A DNA stretch of 64,000 nt, taken from positions 18,485-82,484 of the forward strand of contig NZ_JAPSLH010000013.1 of NCBI RefSeq assembly GCF_031180965.1, in the 5' to 3' direction. Below are positions 57,484 through 64,000 of the stretch, one piece after another; within the stretch, counting starts at the first letter, position 1; each line of letters opens with the position of its first letter. The position numbers and the translations under genes are program-made. The notes beneath the pieces were generated by a model. It did not search any database, had not been told where the DNA came from, and saw only the letters and a list, made by a program, of their open reading frames with translations. Origin of the DNA: Chelativorans sp. GTDB taxonomy: Bacteria; Pseudomonadota; Alphaproteobacteria; Rhizobiales; Rhizobiaceae.

Positions 57484-57568
57484 GCGGTCGTGGCGGAATT
57501 GGTAGACGCGCAGCGTTGAGGTCGCTGTGGGGCAACCCGTGGAAGTTCGAGTCTTCTCGACCGCACCA
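57484..57568 (+). tRNA. tRNA-Leu (anticodon GAG)
   Basis: An 85-base class II tRNA. The acceptor stem GCGGTCG/CGACCGC, anticodon stem CAGCG/CGCTG with loop TTGAGGT, a long variable arm and an encoded CCA are all present. It reads CUC/CUU codons. A tyrosine-recombinase remnant directed towards it begins 23 bases downstream, so its 3' end is a likely attachment site of an integrated element. Confidence 0.95.
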
Positions 57569-57591
57569 GCTAATTTCCATGGCCATTGATA

Positions 57592-58245
57592 TTACTGCTC
57601 TTTAGGCTTTTCCCCGCACCTGATGGTCAGGGTGCGGGCGTTGGGCGTTCTTGATCTTTCCGCCGCGAGTTTTGCAAGCCGCTTCCGGTCTGCTGTCCTG
57701 GTGTAGTGGCTCGCCATGGCGCCACCAGACCAGCCGAAGAGAGCTTCAAGCTCCGCCACCGTTGCTCCGGCCTCTGCTGCCCTCGTCGCACCGATCTTCC
57801 TCACGCCGTGTGCTGATTTCCCATTGAGCCCCCACTTCATTGCAGGCCCGGCGGAAGTGTTACCAAATGTCTCTTGGTCAGCGGCCGACCATTCTCTCCG
57901 ACAATGAGGGCTAGATCTGCAGTTGGGCTGGCCGCAAAGTCTCCTCCACGGCGGGCAGGATGGGAATGCTGACTCCGTCCCTGTCTTCTCTGTCCGAATG
58001 GTCGCCACCCCGTCCTTCATGTGCTGCCTGCCAAGCGTACAGCATCGCCGCGATTGAGTCCGGTGTATAGAAGGAGTGCAGCCAAACGCGCTCCTTGGTG
58101 CCCTCTGGCCACCGCTCGTCGAAGTCTGAACGTCATCCTCGCTCCGGGCCTCGAGCCCTCCGCTCTTGGGTCCCGCCGGGTTCTTCACGCCGGCAGTCGG
58201 ATGGCCTGCGACCCAGTTCCGTCTCGGGCACGAGGACGGCATAAA
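57592..58245 (-). pseudogene. Frameshifted tyrosine recombinase (phage/island integrase) remnant
   Basis: The minus strand encodes pieces of an integrase in different frames. In order they are the core-binding end (GHPTAGVKNP, PKSGGLEARSEDDVQ), a shifted FDERWPEGTKERV, GRQHMKDGVATIRTEKTGTE, then another shift, and the C-terminal catalytic part with HGVRK (H-x-x-R), ELEALFGWSGG and the tyrosine in ASHYTRTADR. At least three frame breaks and a missing N-terminus make it inactive. It sits next to tRNA-Leu and reads towards it, the usual placement for island integrases. Confidence 0.8.
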
Positions 58246-58261
58246 CCCGCAACCACGAACG

Positions 58262-58620
58262 AAATACACGGCGTGTTCTACTCCGCCGCCACTCCGGCGG
58301 GCGCCGTGCACCACGCGATCTTAGCGGCACATTGCAAGCCGCTGCTTGCGGAGAGCTGCCACGGCATCGGCATGCTCGGCGCTACCGGCGAGGCAAACTC
58401 CTTCGGCCTCGCTGAGCGCCAACCGATGTTGAATGACGCCTTCGAAGCGGGAATTGAACCTTCCAGGGTGCTGCCCGGCGCGGCCCAGACGGGCGTTGCC
58501 GACACACTGGTACTCACTCGGCACGCCGTCATCGCGGGGTGGGGGGTGGTGCTGCTGCCGCCATTCTACTGCAAGGGCGTGAGCGAAGAAGGCATGTTCC
58601 GCTTCTATGGTCAAACGGCT
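58262..58620 (+). pseudogene. Truncated dihydrodipicolinate synthase-family fragment
   Basis: About 120 residues match the N-terminal part of DapA-like (DHDPS/N-acetylneuraminate lyase) aldolases: FYSAATPAG, CHGIGMLGATGEANSFGLAERQ and VVLLPPFYCKGVSEEG (in parts). After FRFYGQ the similarity stops, so the Schiff-base lysine and the rest of the barrel are missing. No proper start is visible. It abuts the integrase remnant at a junction near 58250, evidence of a past deletion or rearrangement. Confidence 0.7.
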
Positions 58621-58841
58621 ATGCCGGCATTGGCATCGCGCGCTGGTGGGACGCAATCTTGTGCGCGCTGTTGGATGGCACGAAACAGCTCGAGCTTGAT
58701 GGCGATCTGTCGACGGGAGGAATTTCCGGACGGACTATCTCCCATACGCCCTATCTGCGGTACCGAGACTCTCGTAGATTCATTTGACGCCGCCCCGATG
58801 ATTTGTAGGGGCGGCGTGGGGTTGCATCGTGTTGGTGTCCG
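58621..58841. other. Degenerate sequence between the DapA fragment and the M28 gene
   Basis: A short plus-strand frame contains GIGIARWWDAILCALLDGTKQLELDGD in parts, which looks protein-like but was not recognised; it may be another gene fragment. A GGGGCGGCGT/GACGCCGCCCC complementary pair lies around 58788-58817, just past the M28-family stop on the minus strand, and could help terminate that gene. Confidence 0.35.
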
Positions 58842-60569
58842 CTAGCTGGCCACGAGCTCGATGTGACGGCAGGCCTGCCGCAGCGCTGAGACAAGGCGGT
58901 TCTGGCCGCGCACGAGCTGCGTCTTGGCAAAGCCGAGCGTCGTTTCGTCGAAGCGGTCGAGGTCTGCGGCCGCGGCGATCGAGGGCAGGGGCGGGATCGT
59001 GAGCGCCGGGTCGTGCCGGAAGCGGTTCACGCGTGTGAAGTTGATTGGCACCAGGATGCGTGCCAGATCCTGGATCACCTGGTTCGCCGCCTTGGGCTCG
59101 ATCTGTCCTGACTTCACGCGGGCATAAAAGCCTTCGAGCGCTGTCGAAAGCTCTTCGACGGCCTTTTTCGAGAGCGACAGGTCGAAGCGGCTCCCCGCCT
59201 TGGCCTGGTAATCGGCCACGGTCTCAGCAAACTCGCGCGCCGTCGCGCGCCAGTCGAAGGGCAGGATCTCGGCATTGGCGTTGCGCAGCACGGCGAGCAG
59301 GTAGACCTTGATGTCGCGCAGGAGGACCTCCTTGTCGGCGATCTCCAGCGTGTCGTTCTCCGTGTGCCAGGCGATGTTCCCGCCGCAGCCGCCGACCGTG
59401 TAGTAGCCCTTCTCCTCGCGCAGAGCGTTGGTCATGGTCGAGGACAGCATCAGATAGCTGGAGATGCCGATATTGTTGAAGGAGTAGTCGCCCGCCCGAT
59501 GCGGCCGCTCGCACTCGATCGACTTGCCGGTGACATCGCGGATGACCTGAGCCAGGAAGCCCTCGGTCTCGGTCATGACCGACAGGTTGATGAACTCGGT
59601 CGCCCAGCGGCAGCCGGGGCTGTCGCAGTTCACCTGTGCTACCGCGTTCTGCTCCAGATTGAGCGCGAAAGTGTCGGAGAACCAGGTGGAGCCGGCATAG
59701 CGGCCGGTGGAATGGCCCGGCCACCAGCAGATGCGCACGGAGCGCTTGAGCTTGTCGCGGTTCTGCCAGAGCACGCGGGCGATTTCCAGGAGCGTTGCGT
59801 CGCCCGTGGCGTTGTCGCCCACGCCCACGTCCCAGCTGTCGAGATGCCCGTGCAGGAGCACGTATTTCTCGGGCTCCTCCGTGCCGGGGATGAAGACTTC
59901 CGGCAGCTTGGAGGTGTACCAGCCTTCCTCCATCTCGGTGAAGATCGTGACGCTTCCGCCGCGATCGGCGATGTCGGCCAGCGCCTCGCCGTCGGGCTTG
60001 TTGACGGCCACCGCCGGGATCTTCGGCTTGCGCGGCAGGTCGTCCAGATCGGGCGTGCCCCAGATGGTCGTGCAGATGCCCCAGTGGATGTCCACGCCGG
60101 GATTGATGCCGATCACGCCGATGGCGCCGATCTCCTCGAACTGGGAAACGAGTCCGGGGCTCGCGAAACCTTCGGAGATGACGATCTTGCCGCGCACGCG
60201 GTCGGCCAGCTCCTGCGTAGTCTCGATCTTCTGCTCGAACATGTCGGTAATCATCGCGTTGTGGCGCGCGCCGACATAGACAAGCTGGCCCTTGAGCCCG
60301 TTGCGAGCATCCGCGCTGTAGGCCGGCGGCTTGGCGCGGAAGGTCTTGCCGTCGGCTTCAACCCGCGCCTGGCCGGGAAGGCTGAGATAGAGGCTCGGCT
60401 CGTGGACCTTCACCTCCACGCCATGCTTGCGCAGGCGAGAGACGACCTCATCCATGCCGCGGTTCACGTCCGTCGGGTGCTCGCGCTTGAAGGTGGAAAA
60501 GCTTTCGACCAGCCCCCACGGCTCATCCAGCGAAACCGCAGCAAGAATTTCCTTCTCGATGTTTTCCAT
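58842..60569 (-). CDS. M28-family metallopeptidase-like protein with altered active site
   Basis: A 575-residue cytoplasmic protein (no signal peptide) with a PA domain inserted (about 100-215) in an M28 peptidase fold. The metal-site residues H242 and D252 (GHLDSWDVGVGDNATG), D316 (NCDSPG) and H402 (AWHTEND) are conserved. The position that normally carries the catalytic Glu-Glu pair reads WWPGHSTGRYAGS, with H286-S287 instead. It may therefore have a different chemistry, use His as a ligand, or bind rather than cleave peptides or amides. The shared operator upstream links it to the racemase and transporter genes. Confidence 0.8.
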   Translation of the reverse strand: MENIEKEILAAVSLDEPWGLVESFSTFKREHPTDVNRGMDEVVSRLRKHGVEVKVHEPSLYLSLPGQARVEADGKTFRAKPPAYSADARNGLKGQLVYVGARHNAMITDMFEQKIETTQELADRVRGKIVISEGFASPGLVSQFEEIGAIGVIGINPGVDIHWGICTTIWGTPDLDDLPRKPKIPAVAVNKPDGEALADIADRGGSVTIFTEMEEGWYTSKLPEVFIPGTEEPEKYVLLHGHLDSWDVGVGDNATGDATLLEIARVLWQNRDKLKRSVRICWWPGHSTGRYAGSTWFSDTFALNLEQNAVAQVNCDSPGCRWATEFINLSVMTETEGFLAQVIRDVTGKSIECERPHRAGDYSFNNIGISSYLMLSSTMTNALREEKGYYTVGGCGGNIAWHTENDTLEIADKEVLLRDIKVYLLAVLRNANAEILPFDWRATAREFAETVADYQAKAGSRFDLSLSKKAVEELSTALEGFYARVKSGQIEPKAANQVIQDLARILVPINFTRVNRFRHDPALTIPPLPSIAAAADLDRFDETTLGFAKTQLVRGQNRLVSALRQACRHIELVAS

Positions 60570-60731: not shown

Positions 60732-61544
60732 TCAGGCGATGGAGCGCAGGGCGGCGGACCGGGTTTCCGCCTCGGTCCGGTGCAGCGACAGTTTTTCGGA
60801 GATCTCGCTCGCGGCTTCCATCGCGGCCCGGATGTAGGTCTCGCGCCGCTCCTCGTCGAAGCGGACCATGGCGCCTGCCACGGAGATGGCCGCGATCACC
60901 TCCTCATTGGCGCCGATGATGGGGGCGGCCACCGAGAAGGCGCCCTCGTCGAGATCGTTGAGGGCGATGTTGTAGCCGTTGGCGCGGATGCGGGCCAAGG
61001 TCTGGCGCAGCTTGTCACGGTCGGTGATCGTGTACGGCGTGAACGCCTCGAGCGGGCTTGCGAGCACGGCATCAATGACGGGCTCGCCGCTGAAGGCCAG
61101 GATGCAGAGTGAGCCGCCGCCGGCATGAAGGGGCCCGTGGCGGCCCGCCTGCGCAAAGAGGCGGATGGAATGGCGTCCGGGGCGGGTGGCGAGCACGAGC
61201 GACCGCAACCCCTCGCGCACCACGAGGTTGATGGTTTCGGAGGTGCGGTCACGCAGGGCTTCCATCACGGGACGGGCGGCAAAGAGCAGGCTGCCGTCGC
61301 GGCCGACGCGCTCGCCGAGCACGCCGATGCGGTAGCCCAGCGAATAGACAGCCTGGTCGGGATCGCGAAAGACAAAGCCGCGCTCCTCCAGCGTCTGCAG
61401 CAGGCGAAACACGATCGTCTTGGTGAGCCCGAGGGACTTTGCGAGCGCCGTGACCCCTTGGCCCGGTTTTTCCGCGAGTGCCTCCAGCACGAGCAGCGCC
61501 CGGTCGACGGCGGCGATCCTATAGTTCTTCTGGCTCTCGTTCAT
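60732..61544 (-). CDS. IclR-family transcriptional regulator
   Basis: A 270-residue regulator with an N-terminal winged helix-turn-helix (about 8-65; VTALAKSLGLTKTIVFRLLQTLEE in parts) and a C-terminal effector-binding domain (about 80-255). It is divergent from the racemase-transporter unit and lies between that unit and the M28-family gene. Paired palindromes in front of both target genes suggest that it controls them and probably itself. The effector is unknown. Confidence 0.9.
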   Translation of the reverse strand: MNESQKNYRIAAVDRALLVLEALAEKPGQGVTALAKSLGLTKTIVFRLLQTLEERGFVFRDPDQAVYSLGYRIGVLGERVGRDGSLLFAARPVMEALRDRTSETINLVVREGLRSLVLATRPGRHSIRLFAQAGRHGPLHAGGGSLCILAFSGEPVIDAVLASPLEAFTPYTITDRDKLRQTLARIRANGYNIALNDLDEGAFSVAAPIIGANEEVIAAISVAGAMVRFDEERRETYIRAAMEAASEISEKLSLHRTEAETRSAALRSIA

Positions 61545-61582
61545 CGGCCCGTCTCTCCGACTCTCGCGCTCTGCGAGCCTGT

Positions 61583-61616
61583 TGCAATATTGCAGAATTG
61601 TGATTTACTCAATTCT
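61583..61616. promoter_or_regulatory. Inverted repeats in the iclR-racemase intergenic region
   Basis: A perfect 12-bp palindrome TGCAATATTGCA (61583-61594) is followed by AGAATTG-N9-CAATTCT (61594-61616). Both lie between the divergent start codons, where the iclR promoter and the racemase promoter must overlap, so they may be further operators. Confidence 0.45.
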
Positions 61617-61620
61617 ACCA

Positions 61621-61645
61621 GAAACGCTGTTTCGGTCAATGAAAC
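61621..61645 (+). promoter_or_regulatory. Three-arm palindromic element before the racemase gene
   Basis: GAAAC, 3 bases, GTTTC, 7 bases, GAAAC, ending 17 bases before the chosen ATG. It matches the element before the M28-family gene at 19 of 25 positions in the same orientation relative to the gene. GAAACGCTGTTTC is a perfect 5-3-5 palindrome of the kind bound by IclR-family proteins. Confidence 0.6.
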
Positions 61646-61662
61646 AAGAGGGGCCTTGCTCG

Positions 61663-62418
61663 ATGCGTATAGCGTATGTGGTTCCCGGTCCGATGTCGAA
61701 GGGCCCCATGGGGCTGAAGGAGATGCGCAGGCGCGAGGCGCTGCTCAATTCCTGGGCTTTTCAGGGAACAGAGGTCGCGGTTGTTGATGTGCCGGAGGGA
61801 CCGGCTTCCATCGAATCCGCCTATGAGGAAGCGCTCTGCGTTCCCGCCACCATCGAGCTGATCCTGAAATGCGAGCGCGACGGTTTCGATGCCGCGATCA
61901 TTGGCTGCTTCGGCGACCCGGGACTGGAGGCAGCGCGGGAGCTTGCCCGCATCCCCGTGGTCGGTCCCTGCGAGAGCTCGATGCTGCTTGCCGCAAGCCT
62001 CGGCCACAAGTTCTCGATCCTTACCATCTTCGACAGCATGGCCGCCGGCCAGGAACTGCTCGCCTACAAGGCCGGCGTGCGCGACAAGCTTGCTTCCGTG
62101 CGCGCCACCGGCATCCCGGTGCTGGAGCTCATGAAGGACGTGGAGAAGACGAAGGCGCGGATGATCGAGGTGGCCGGGCGTTGCGTCCGGGAAGACCGGG
62201 CGGACGCGTTTCTGTTCGGCTGCATGACCATGTCGTTCCTTGACATGGCAGAGGAGATTTCCGCCGCCGTCGGCGCGCCGGCTGTCAACGCCGGCAAGGC
62301 CGCGCTCAAGCACGCGGAGACGCTTGTTTCCATGGGCCTTTCCCAGTCCAAGACCGCATACCCAATGCCGGCGAAGATGCAGGCCGGCCAATCATTCGAG
62401 GCTCTGCGGGTGGCTTGA
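61663..62418 (+). CDS. Asp/Glu/hydantoin racemase-family protein
   Basis: A 251-residue protein of the aspartate/glutamate/hydantoin racemase family. The two catalytic cysteines are visible as C82 in IIGCFGDPGL and C187 in LFGCMTMS, so cofactor-independent racemisation or a related reaction (for example maleate isomerase chemistry) is likely. The length fits hydantoin racemases. The ATG at 61663 has AGAGGGG upstream; an ATG eight codons earlier has no site and lies inside the putative operator. The solute-binding protein gene follows after 48 bases. Confidence 0.82.
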   Translation: MRIAYVVPGPMSKGPMGLKEMRRREALLNSWAFQGTEVAVVDVPEGPASIESAYEEALCVPATIELILKCERDGFDAAIIGCFGDPGLEAARELARIPVVGPCESSMLLAASLGHKFSILTIFDSMAAGQELLAYKAGVRDKLASVRATGIPVLELMKDVEKTKARMIEVAGRCVREDRADAFLFGCMTMSFLDMAEEISAAVGAPAVNAGKAALKHAETLVSMGLSQSKTAYPMPAKMQAGQSFEALRVA

Positions 62419-62466: not shown

Positions 62467-64000
62467 ATGATGTCGTTCAGGAAGGCGGTCACGTCGACCG
62501 CGCTACTGCTTGTTCTTTCCGCGGCACCGGCCCTTGCCGGTGATCCGATCCGCACCATCGAGATCCTGACCCGTCCGCAGGCTGCCCAGCCGCAGGAGTT
62601 CCAGTCCGTGCAGCTCATCGCCCAGGAGTGGCGCAAGCTGGGGCTGGACGTGAACGTCAAGGTGATGCCCTGGGAGCAGATGTCAGACGTGGTGTGGTAC
62701 CAGCGCGACGCATGGGACGCGACGGCCTGGCAGATGGTCGGCCGTCCGGAGCGCTCCGACCCCGACGAGATCGTCTACAATCTCTTCCACTCCTCGACGG
62801 CCGAAAAGGGCTACAACTTCATCGGCTATGTCAGCCCGGAATATGATGCCGTGGCCGAGGCGCAGCGCAAGGAAGTCGACGAGGCGAAGCGCAAGGAACT
62901 GGTCTTCCAGGCGCAGGAGCTGCTTGCGAAGGACCAGCCGAACATGATGCTGGTGCATCCGAAGCAATCCTTCGCCTTCGACAAGACGGTGTGGGATCCG
63001 GCTTCGGTGGTGAACCAGAGCGGCATCGGCATCCGCAACACCTGGACCTTCCTGTCGCTGACGCCGCTTGGCGAGAAGAAGGACATCGTCCTTAACTCCG
63101 CCGACAACGTGCAGGCGATCAATCCGCTGTACATTTCCGGCGGTGTCGACAGCTGGGTCTTCGAGCTCGTCTACGACCGTCTCGCCCGCGTCGGGCCGGA
63201 TGGCCTGCCCAAGCCGTGGGCTGCCGAAAGCATCGAGTGGACAGGCGACAAGACCGTCACCGTAAAGCTGCGCGAGGGCATGAAGTGGCATGACGGCCAG
63301 CCGGTGACGCCGGAAGACGTGAAATTCTCCTTCGAGACGGCTGTGAGCGGCGAGGCACCGATGTACGCGCCCTTCGCCAGCAATATCGAGAAGATCGATA
63401 TTGACGGCTCGAACATCACCTTCACGCTGAAGGAGCCTTCCGCTTCCTTCGTCACCTCGAGCCTAGCCAAGATCAACCTCATCCCCAGGCATGTCTGGGA
63501 GCCCATCATCGAGGATCTGAAGACCAAGGAAGAAAACGCCGAAAGCCACCAGGAGCAGACGCCGATCGGCTCCGGCCCGTACAAGTTCGAGCGCTGGCTC
63601 ACGAACGAGGAAATCGTGCTTTCCGCCAACAAGGAGCATTTCAATGCGCCCAAGGCGGACCGCTGGATCCTGCGCATCGTGCCCAACGTCGAGGCCGCGC
63701 TCGGCATGCTGCGTTCAGGCGAGATCAACTTCCTGGCCGAGTTCGGCGGCGACCCGCAGGTGCTGATCGATGCGGCTGCGCAGGATGGCGACTTGGAAGT
63801 GGTCTCGACGGTCGAAATGGGCTTCCGCTACATCGCCTTCAACAACCGCCGGCCGCCTTTCAATGATCCGGCCTTCCGCCGCGCGCTTTCGGCTGCGGTC
63901 GACCGCCGGCTCATCGTCAAGGCTGCCTTCCGCGGCTTTGCGGAGCCGTCGAACTCCATCGTCTCGCCGGCGCTCAGCTTCTGGCACAATGAAGCGGTCG
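62467..64000 (+). CDS. Family 5 ABC transporter solute-binding protein, lobe order permuted; 3' end outside window
   Basis: The first 511 residues are visible. A Sec signal peptide (cleavage near ALAGD) is followed at residues 30-198 by sequence typical of the C-terminal lobe of DppA/OppA-like proteins (AQEWRKLGLDVNVKVMPWEQM, DPDEIVYNLF, YVSPEYD, KRKELVFQAQELLAKDQPNMMLVHP in parts). Only then comes the normal N-terminal lobe (205 onwards: NPLYISGG, KPWAAESIEW, LREGMKWHDGQPVTPEDVKFSFE in parts) and the middle lobe (GSGPYKFERW, FRRALSAAVDRRLI). It should bind a peptide- or amino-acid-like ligand for an ABC importer encoded downstream. AGGAGA precedes the ATG. Confidence 0.85.
   Translation, partial: MMSFRKAVTSTALLLVLSAAPALAGDPIRTIEILTRPQAAQPQEFQSVQLIAQEWRKLGLDVNVKVMPWEQMSDVVWYQRDAWDATAWQMVGRPERSDPDEIVYNLFHSSTAEKGYNFIGYVSPEYDAVAEAQRKEVDEAKRKELVFQAQELLAKDQPNMMLVHPKQSFAFDKTVWDPASVVNQSGIGIRNTWTFLSLTPLGEKKDIVLNSADNVQAINPLYISGGVDSWVFELVYDRLARVGPDGLPKPWAAESIEWTGDKTVTVKLREGMKWHDGQPVTPEDVKFSFETAVSGEAPMYAPFASNIEKIDIDGSNITFTLKEPSASFVTSSLAKINLIPRHVWEPIIEDLKTKEENAESHQEQTPIGSGPYKFERWLTNEEIVLSANKEHFNAPKADRWILRIVPNVEAALGMLRSGEINFLAEFGGDPQVLIDAAAQDGDLEVVSTVEMGFRYIAFNNRRPPFNDPAFRRALSAAVDRRLIVKAAFRGFAEPSNSIVSPALSFWHNEAV

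Follow-up and report, generated by a model that had tools for sequence, protein, structure and literature searches.

Evidence for a conserved, circularly permuted family 5 solute-binding protein at the head of a DppBCDF-type operon in Chelativorans sp.

Sequence comparison and a predicted structure make it very probable that a gene of Chelativorans sp. encodes an exported solute-binding protein of the SBP_bac_5 family (cluster C, DppA/OppA), whose chain is circularly permuted and which works with its new ends as the Venus-flytrap subunit of an importer. Binding proteins of family 5 occur very commonly among bacteria, and it is on them that models of peptide import are based. The sequences indicate that the change is a conserved rearrangement of such a very common protein and not a sequencing error, and we consider it a real conserved redesign because dozens of relatives in other bacteria carry the same rearrangement.

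The gene lies at the end of the stretch of DNA that was analysed (hereafter, the window; 64,000 nucleotides, G000:C12:18485-82484, on a contig of 122,656 bases). It is a single open frame there, from ATG 62467 to the window end, as judged from the open reading frame. In the numbering of the extended locus L021 (window position minus 60000) the full gene occupies L021:2443-4122, with 559 codons if counted from ATG 62443 and 551 from ATG 62467; a third in-frame ATG is found at 62470. The N-termini of relatives align with the later start, ATG 62467, and a purine-rich stretch lies 5' of both ATGs 62443 and 62467 (AGAGGAG before 62467, by eye). The gene and its parts, all on the + strand, are as follows.

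62467..64000 and on to L021:4122 (122 bases past the window), +, circularly permuted family 5 solute-binding protein, from the open reading frame and profile and sequence matches
62467..62538, +, signal peptide MMSFRKAVTSTALLLVLSAAPALA, cleavage expected before GDPIRT, by eye and from the aligned N-termini of 23 relatives
62578..63003, +, old C-terminal part (ORF residues 46-187, ordinary-profile positions 361-500), now near the N-terminus
63004..63078, +, 25-residue junction that links the old C- and N-ends and fills the gap between the profile matches, ending ...IGIRNTWTFLSLTPLGEK
63079..64000, +, old N-terminal part (ORF residues 213-541, ordinary-profile positions 28-348), running past the window

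The only Pfam family detected in the protein was PF00496, at 242.7 bits against a curated cut-off of 32.4 and in two stretches. The best stretch placed residues 256-546 on profile positions 2-285 of 368, and in the genome profile search positions 290-366 of the profile matched farther upstream, at C12:81047-81286 (residues 41-120). The earlier note on this DNA had placed the C-terminal segment of a DppA/OppA-type protein right after the signal peptide and the usual first lobe only from about residue 205, and both claims were borne out by two reversed matches to each of three reference proteins and by the start of the old N-terminal part at residue 213. When solved structures were searched with phmmer, query residues 213-544 of the protein fell on chain positions 22-350 of AppA (1xoc) and residues 58-180 on 379-496 (i-E 9.3e-8); for 5u4o, residues 219-542 fell on 53-362 and 56-165 on 379-484 (i-E 1.4e-9). 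With blastp, residues 211-538 aligned to positions 27-367 of E. coli DppA and residues 50-172 to 387-505 (E 9.8e-8 for the second), and a rotated copy of the protein gave a single alignment, 7-494 on 27-505. Similarity of the leading segment to the C-terminal part of family 5 proteins, which the note had proposed to check by alignment, was thus present in phmmer, blastp and profile comparisons.

The protein was also rotated in 10-residue steps and scored with a clean profile built from the ordinary family 5 proteins of this genome (18 sequences). In native order it gave 226.3 bits (profile 28-348) and 65.7 bits (profile 362-500), reversed, and when rotated at residue 204 it gave a single match of 301.7 bits over profile positions 29-499. 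Among the controls, OppA scored best unrotated (337.3 bits), and DppA scored 458.1 bits in native order and 458.7 bits at a 7-residue shift. The phmmer and blastp matches in reversed order are far beyond chance. The break corresponds to about residue 369 of the DppA precursor, which we take to lie inside the second lobe. It is therefore more exact to say that the first part of lobe 2 stays C-terminal and that the moved piece comprises the later part of lobe 2 and the return to lobe 1. The protein passed the cut-off of the family profile, but the usual order of N-terminal part followed by C-terminal part was absent from it and from the 51 permuted proteins described below. On these matches the window protein is placed in a permuted branch of SBP_bac_5 and is not an ordinary member.

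Homologues with the same order, for which the note had suggested a search, were found in large number. A contig scan yielded 28 loci, of which 24 aligned over the full permuted length with 50-87% identity and four were ordinary. These loci came from Chelativorans, Nitratireductor, Mesorhizobium, Rhizobium, Sulfitobacter, Gemmobacter and Reyranella, and also from metagenome bins, some of the last labelled Anaerolineales, Anaerolineae, Thermomicrobiaceae or Halanaerobiales. The permuted protein of the Halanaerobiales-labelled bin (L038, genome G934) grouped with those of Chloroflexota-labelled bins, which may reflect misbinning or transfer. In a Rhodospirillales metagenome contig (L044:7983-9675) the permuted gene was split after about 113 codons by a frameshift, either real or an assembly error.

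Genome draws at several ranks gave counts that are lower bounds, with three candidates scored per genome in the class and phylum draws and seven in the family draw and the draw from the phylum of the L041 genome. Matches were detected in at least 13 of 385 genomes of the class at E <= 1e-80 (12 at whole length and G122 cut by a contig start) and in at least 28 of 199 genomes of the family at E <= 1e-50. Fifteen of these 28 held the whole permuted length (19 genes), and the other 13 matched only from profile position 139 or later, as ordinary proteins do. The phylum draw gave at least one of 398 genomes at E <= 1e-60, namely that of the window, and at least two of 201 genomes matched in the phylum of L041. 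The N-terminal part alone, used as query, gave matches at 1e-40 in 10 of 240 genomes. Nine of these have the full permuted gene in the class draw, and the tenth match is the cut gene of G122. The permease as query matched 13 genes in 12 of 240 genomes and led to two distant permuted loci (L097 and L098) and an ordinary one (L099). The distant pair (L097:8480-9958 and L098:5632-7494) forms a very distant permuted subgroup with 28-30% identity and longer C-terminal tails, and in L098 about 45 additional residues follow the signal peptide (by eye). Two members of the window's own genus, G474 and G551, had no match at 1e-50 in the family draw, so the spread of the permuted gene looks patchy. Each of six genomes that were looked at carried one full-length permuted gene together with ordinary family 5 matches.

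To define the rearrangement across relatives, frames were sorted by their coverage of the permuted and ordinary profiles, those in neither class being cut, partial or on the wrong strand. We kept 51 distinct permuted proteins, the window's included; as they were picked by permuted-profile coverage, counts among them speak to consistency and not to frequency. Repeats of one gene, pieces below 500 residues, L044 (frameshift) and L057 (contig beginning inside the gene) were left out; L097 was kept with its N-terminus cut in the sequence used, and L062 was one codon short in alignment A2. With the clean ordinary profile, all 51 showed the reversed order. The N-terminal part ended at model positions 347-355 in every one of them, which puts the break in a single region, and the C-terminal part started at 343-400 (at 361-366 in 34), its match being weak in a few, such as L097 (20.0 bits) and L126 (29.8 bits).

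In a tree of whole proteins with 91 rows (51 permuted and 40 ordinary), the permuted proteins fell on one side of a branch with an SH-aLRT support of 99; the support was 98 for the N-terminal part alone and 93 for the C-terminal part alone. The nearest ordinary rows for both parts were L111 and L121 (genomes of L041 and L040), with support of 73 (N-terminal part) and 88 (C-terminal part). Their position as sister of the permuted branch is tentative, because the tree was a quick one with several long branches and a sample of ordinary proteins collected by hand. The permutation probably has a single origin, in which an ordinary gene was duplicated in tandem and then lost the outer parts, with a signal peptide kept. 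A short junction links the old chain ends in the permuted protein, whose new ends lie between the '..AGY' helix and the strand that usually comes next. No repeats at the new ends were readable as scars of such an event. By tandem duplication and truncation not only copies but also paralogues can become joined, and the support for a common sister is modest, so the two parts might in principle descend from different parent binding proteins. We regard such a chimera as improbable, since the separate trees put both parts beside the same two ordinary proteins.

Downstream of the permuted gene come genes for two permeases and two ATPases, whose Pfam domains are those of Dpp/Opp transporters, and this arrangement indicates that it heads a DppBCDF-type operon. 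Permease B was downstream in 23 of the 24 loci, and all four subunits were present in 19, the other five lying at contig ends. The pairing is not universal, because the permease matched in L103 and in L104 lies several kb off, in the opposite direction; in L104 another ATPase pair is found just upstream of the permuted gene. The permuted protein would capture a ligand between its lobes and pass it to the DppBC-like channel, powered by the DppDF-like ATPases. It might instead have lost its import role and act as a periplasmic sensor or sink within the operon, given that the six genomes mentioned above also hold ordinary family 5 proteins able to serve the same permease. We consider such a role quite unlikely: the position ahead of permease B is widely kept, and the only other family 5 frame found in the 24 loci is part of a separate transporter in L027.

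Two further explanations of the reversed order are weaker still. The earlier note had left the choice between a permutation and an extra copy of the last lobe, placed at the N-terminus of a protein with a normal C-terminal copy, to be decided by extending the sequence past position 64000, as the gene is cut by the window end and the window alone could not exclude a second copy. In the extended sequence the product ended soon, with a stop at codon 559 (L021:4122), 18 residues past the last residue matched by the ordinary profile. We conclude that the rearrangement is a permutation and not a duplication, because just one C-terminal segment was matched and the complete gene reaches its stop with no second one; the relatives likewise lack a second one, and the duplication is left with hardly any probability. 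An assembly or annotation artefact that wrongly joined pieces of two tandem genes is just as implausible in spite of the 19 genes with a PF00496 match in the genome (permuted gene included), as the contig continues for 40 kb past the gene, the same order occurs in the 24 loci (23 intact and one frameshifted) and further genomes at 28-88% identity, and independent genomes carry the same junction.

The surroundings of the permuted gene may bear on what its transporter imports. Upstream of it we annotated three genes, given below with the number of the 24 loci in which a relative lies near the permuted gene where counted, loci cut short being scored as misses.

61582..62418, +, Asp/Glu/hydantoin racemase family gene (PF01177), just upstream; relative in 10 of 24 loci
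60732..61544, -, IclR-type regulator, divergent
58842..60569, -, M28-family peptidase; relative in 14 of 24 loci

Past the window and downstream of the transporter, L021:8091-14352 holds a gene for a zinc-type oxidoreductase, a HyuB/HyuA pair and an M20 dipeptidase-like gene, and is likely, from its domain content, a catabolic cluster for a lactam- or hydantoin-like compound. HyuA and HyuB match Pfam Hydantoinase A and B, and their best NCBIfam matches are caprolactamase subunits, below the curated cut-offs. Relatives of both were near the permuted gene in 13 of the 24 loci (cut loci again counting as misses). On the far side of the M28 peptidase gene, 57484-58842 holds a tRNA-Leu (gag), then a - strand frame matching the final part of a phage-type integrase (21.0 bits against a Pfam cut-off of 27.1) and a + strand frame with a partial DHDPS-family domain (positions 13-121 of 289). 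This segment, which adjoins the permuted-protein cluster, may be what is left of an element that had inserted at the tRNA.

To obtain a structural view, AlphaFold2 was run on the orthologue from L022, which is 88% identical to the window protein over 525 columns, with a 23-row alignment, and the model was confident, with a pLDDT of 89.2 and a pTM of 0.85. The best 50 listed Foldseek matches to the model in the PDB had 342-406 aligned columns and TMq values of 0.38-0.51, which are uncalibrated; the matched chains are binding proteins of the DppA/OppA type. Such short alignments fit what is expected if just one sequential piece of the permuted chain aligns. The window protein probably folds as the usual two-lobed Venus flytrap. 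Among 60 of the 101 PDB chains matched by the permuted profile, no solved permuted member was seen and no best match started before profile position 200.

In E. coli DppA, according to PMC12136057, R383 and D436 in the cleft hold the carboxyl and amino ends of the dipeptide. The position of R383 is gapped in all 51 permuted and 38 of 40 ordinary rows and is uninformative. At the position of D436, 36 of the 51 permuted proteins have E and 4 have D, with an acidic residue in the window protein too, and D is found in 6 of 40 ordinary rows. Directly after it, Arg occurs in 51/51 permuted and in 1/40 ordinary rows. We also asked whether the DppB scoop loop (E41, R42) had changed together with the new Arg, but dropped this idea, as the loop varies among ordinary permeases too. 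As a tentative suggestion from these residues and the gene neighbours, the ligand could be an acidic cyclic amide, an N-acyl amino acid or similar, subsequently processed by neighbouring enzymes; the hydantoinase/lactamase-like pair, the racemase and the peptidases would act on it after import. Regarding export, the 24 N-termini that were compared included Tat-like ones in L033, L035, L038 and L039 and a lipobox in L039 (simple motif search) and L040 (by eye). In such lipoprotein members lobe 2, and not lobe 1, would carry the tether.

Permuted binding proteins are already known in other classes, the closest parallel being Tp0684/TpMglB-2 of Treponema pallidum, described in PMC4990184 as a circularly permuted type I cluster B sugar-binding protein. 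It is likewise a natural permutation of the binding protein of an ABC importer, keeps ligand binding and has homologues of the same topology, but it differs in fold class and in the site of the break (PMC4990184). Membership in its type (Type Ic, TpMglB-2-like) is not indicated here, the listed sequence and fold matches being of the family 5 type. Membrane tethering was raised there as a possible reason for the permutation (PMC4990184), whereas most of the 24 N-termini of the permuted family 5 proteins have no lipobox. Another case, in PMC2395249, links glycine betaine-binding proteins with molybdate-binding proteins and CysB as a circular permutation family of CPSARST, at <24% identity between families; the permutation here, in contrast, lies inside one recognisable sequence family. 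Within the literature on natural permutation, the terms searched for were absent from the OpuA paper (PMC2861598). No permuted family 5 protein was among the open-access literature matches listed, which lie mostly outside subscription journals and are weak evidence of absence.

Compared with DppA, OppA and AppA (SBP_bac_5, PF00496), the permuted protein shares both sequence parts and the operon type, in which two permeases are joined by two ATPases, but it is rotated, with the break near DppA residue 369, and has an invariant Arg beside the D436 position. A doubtful but far-reaching extension would be that selection favoured the permutation, that its carriers make up a branch of the cluster C importers that is separate and anciently derived ('cluster Cc'), and that the invariant Arg anchors a new ligand class in them. 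If this were true, the ligand-contacting segment would come first and both ends, with the lipoprotein tether, would move from lobe 1 to lobe 2, changing folding, tethering and docking.

An apparent single origin within one family, with both forms in the same genomes, makes these proteins a rare test bed for questions of chain order in folding, export, tethering and docking. Profile-based annotation may name such proteins while hiding that part of the chain sits elsewhere. As native permuted scaffolds, they may also be of use to biosensor makers.
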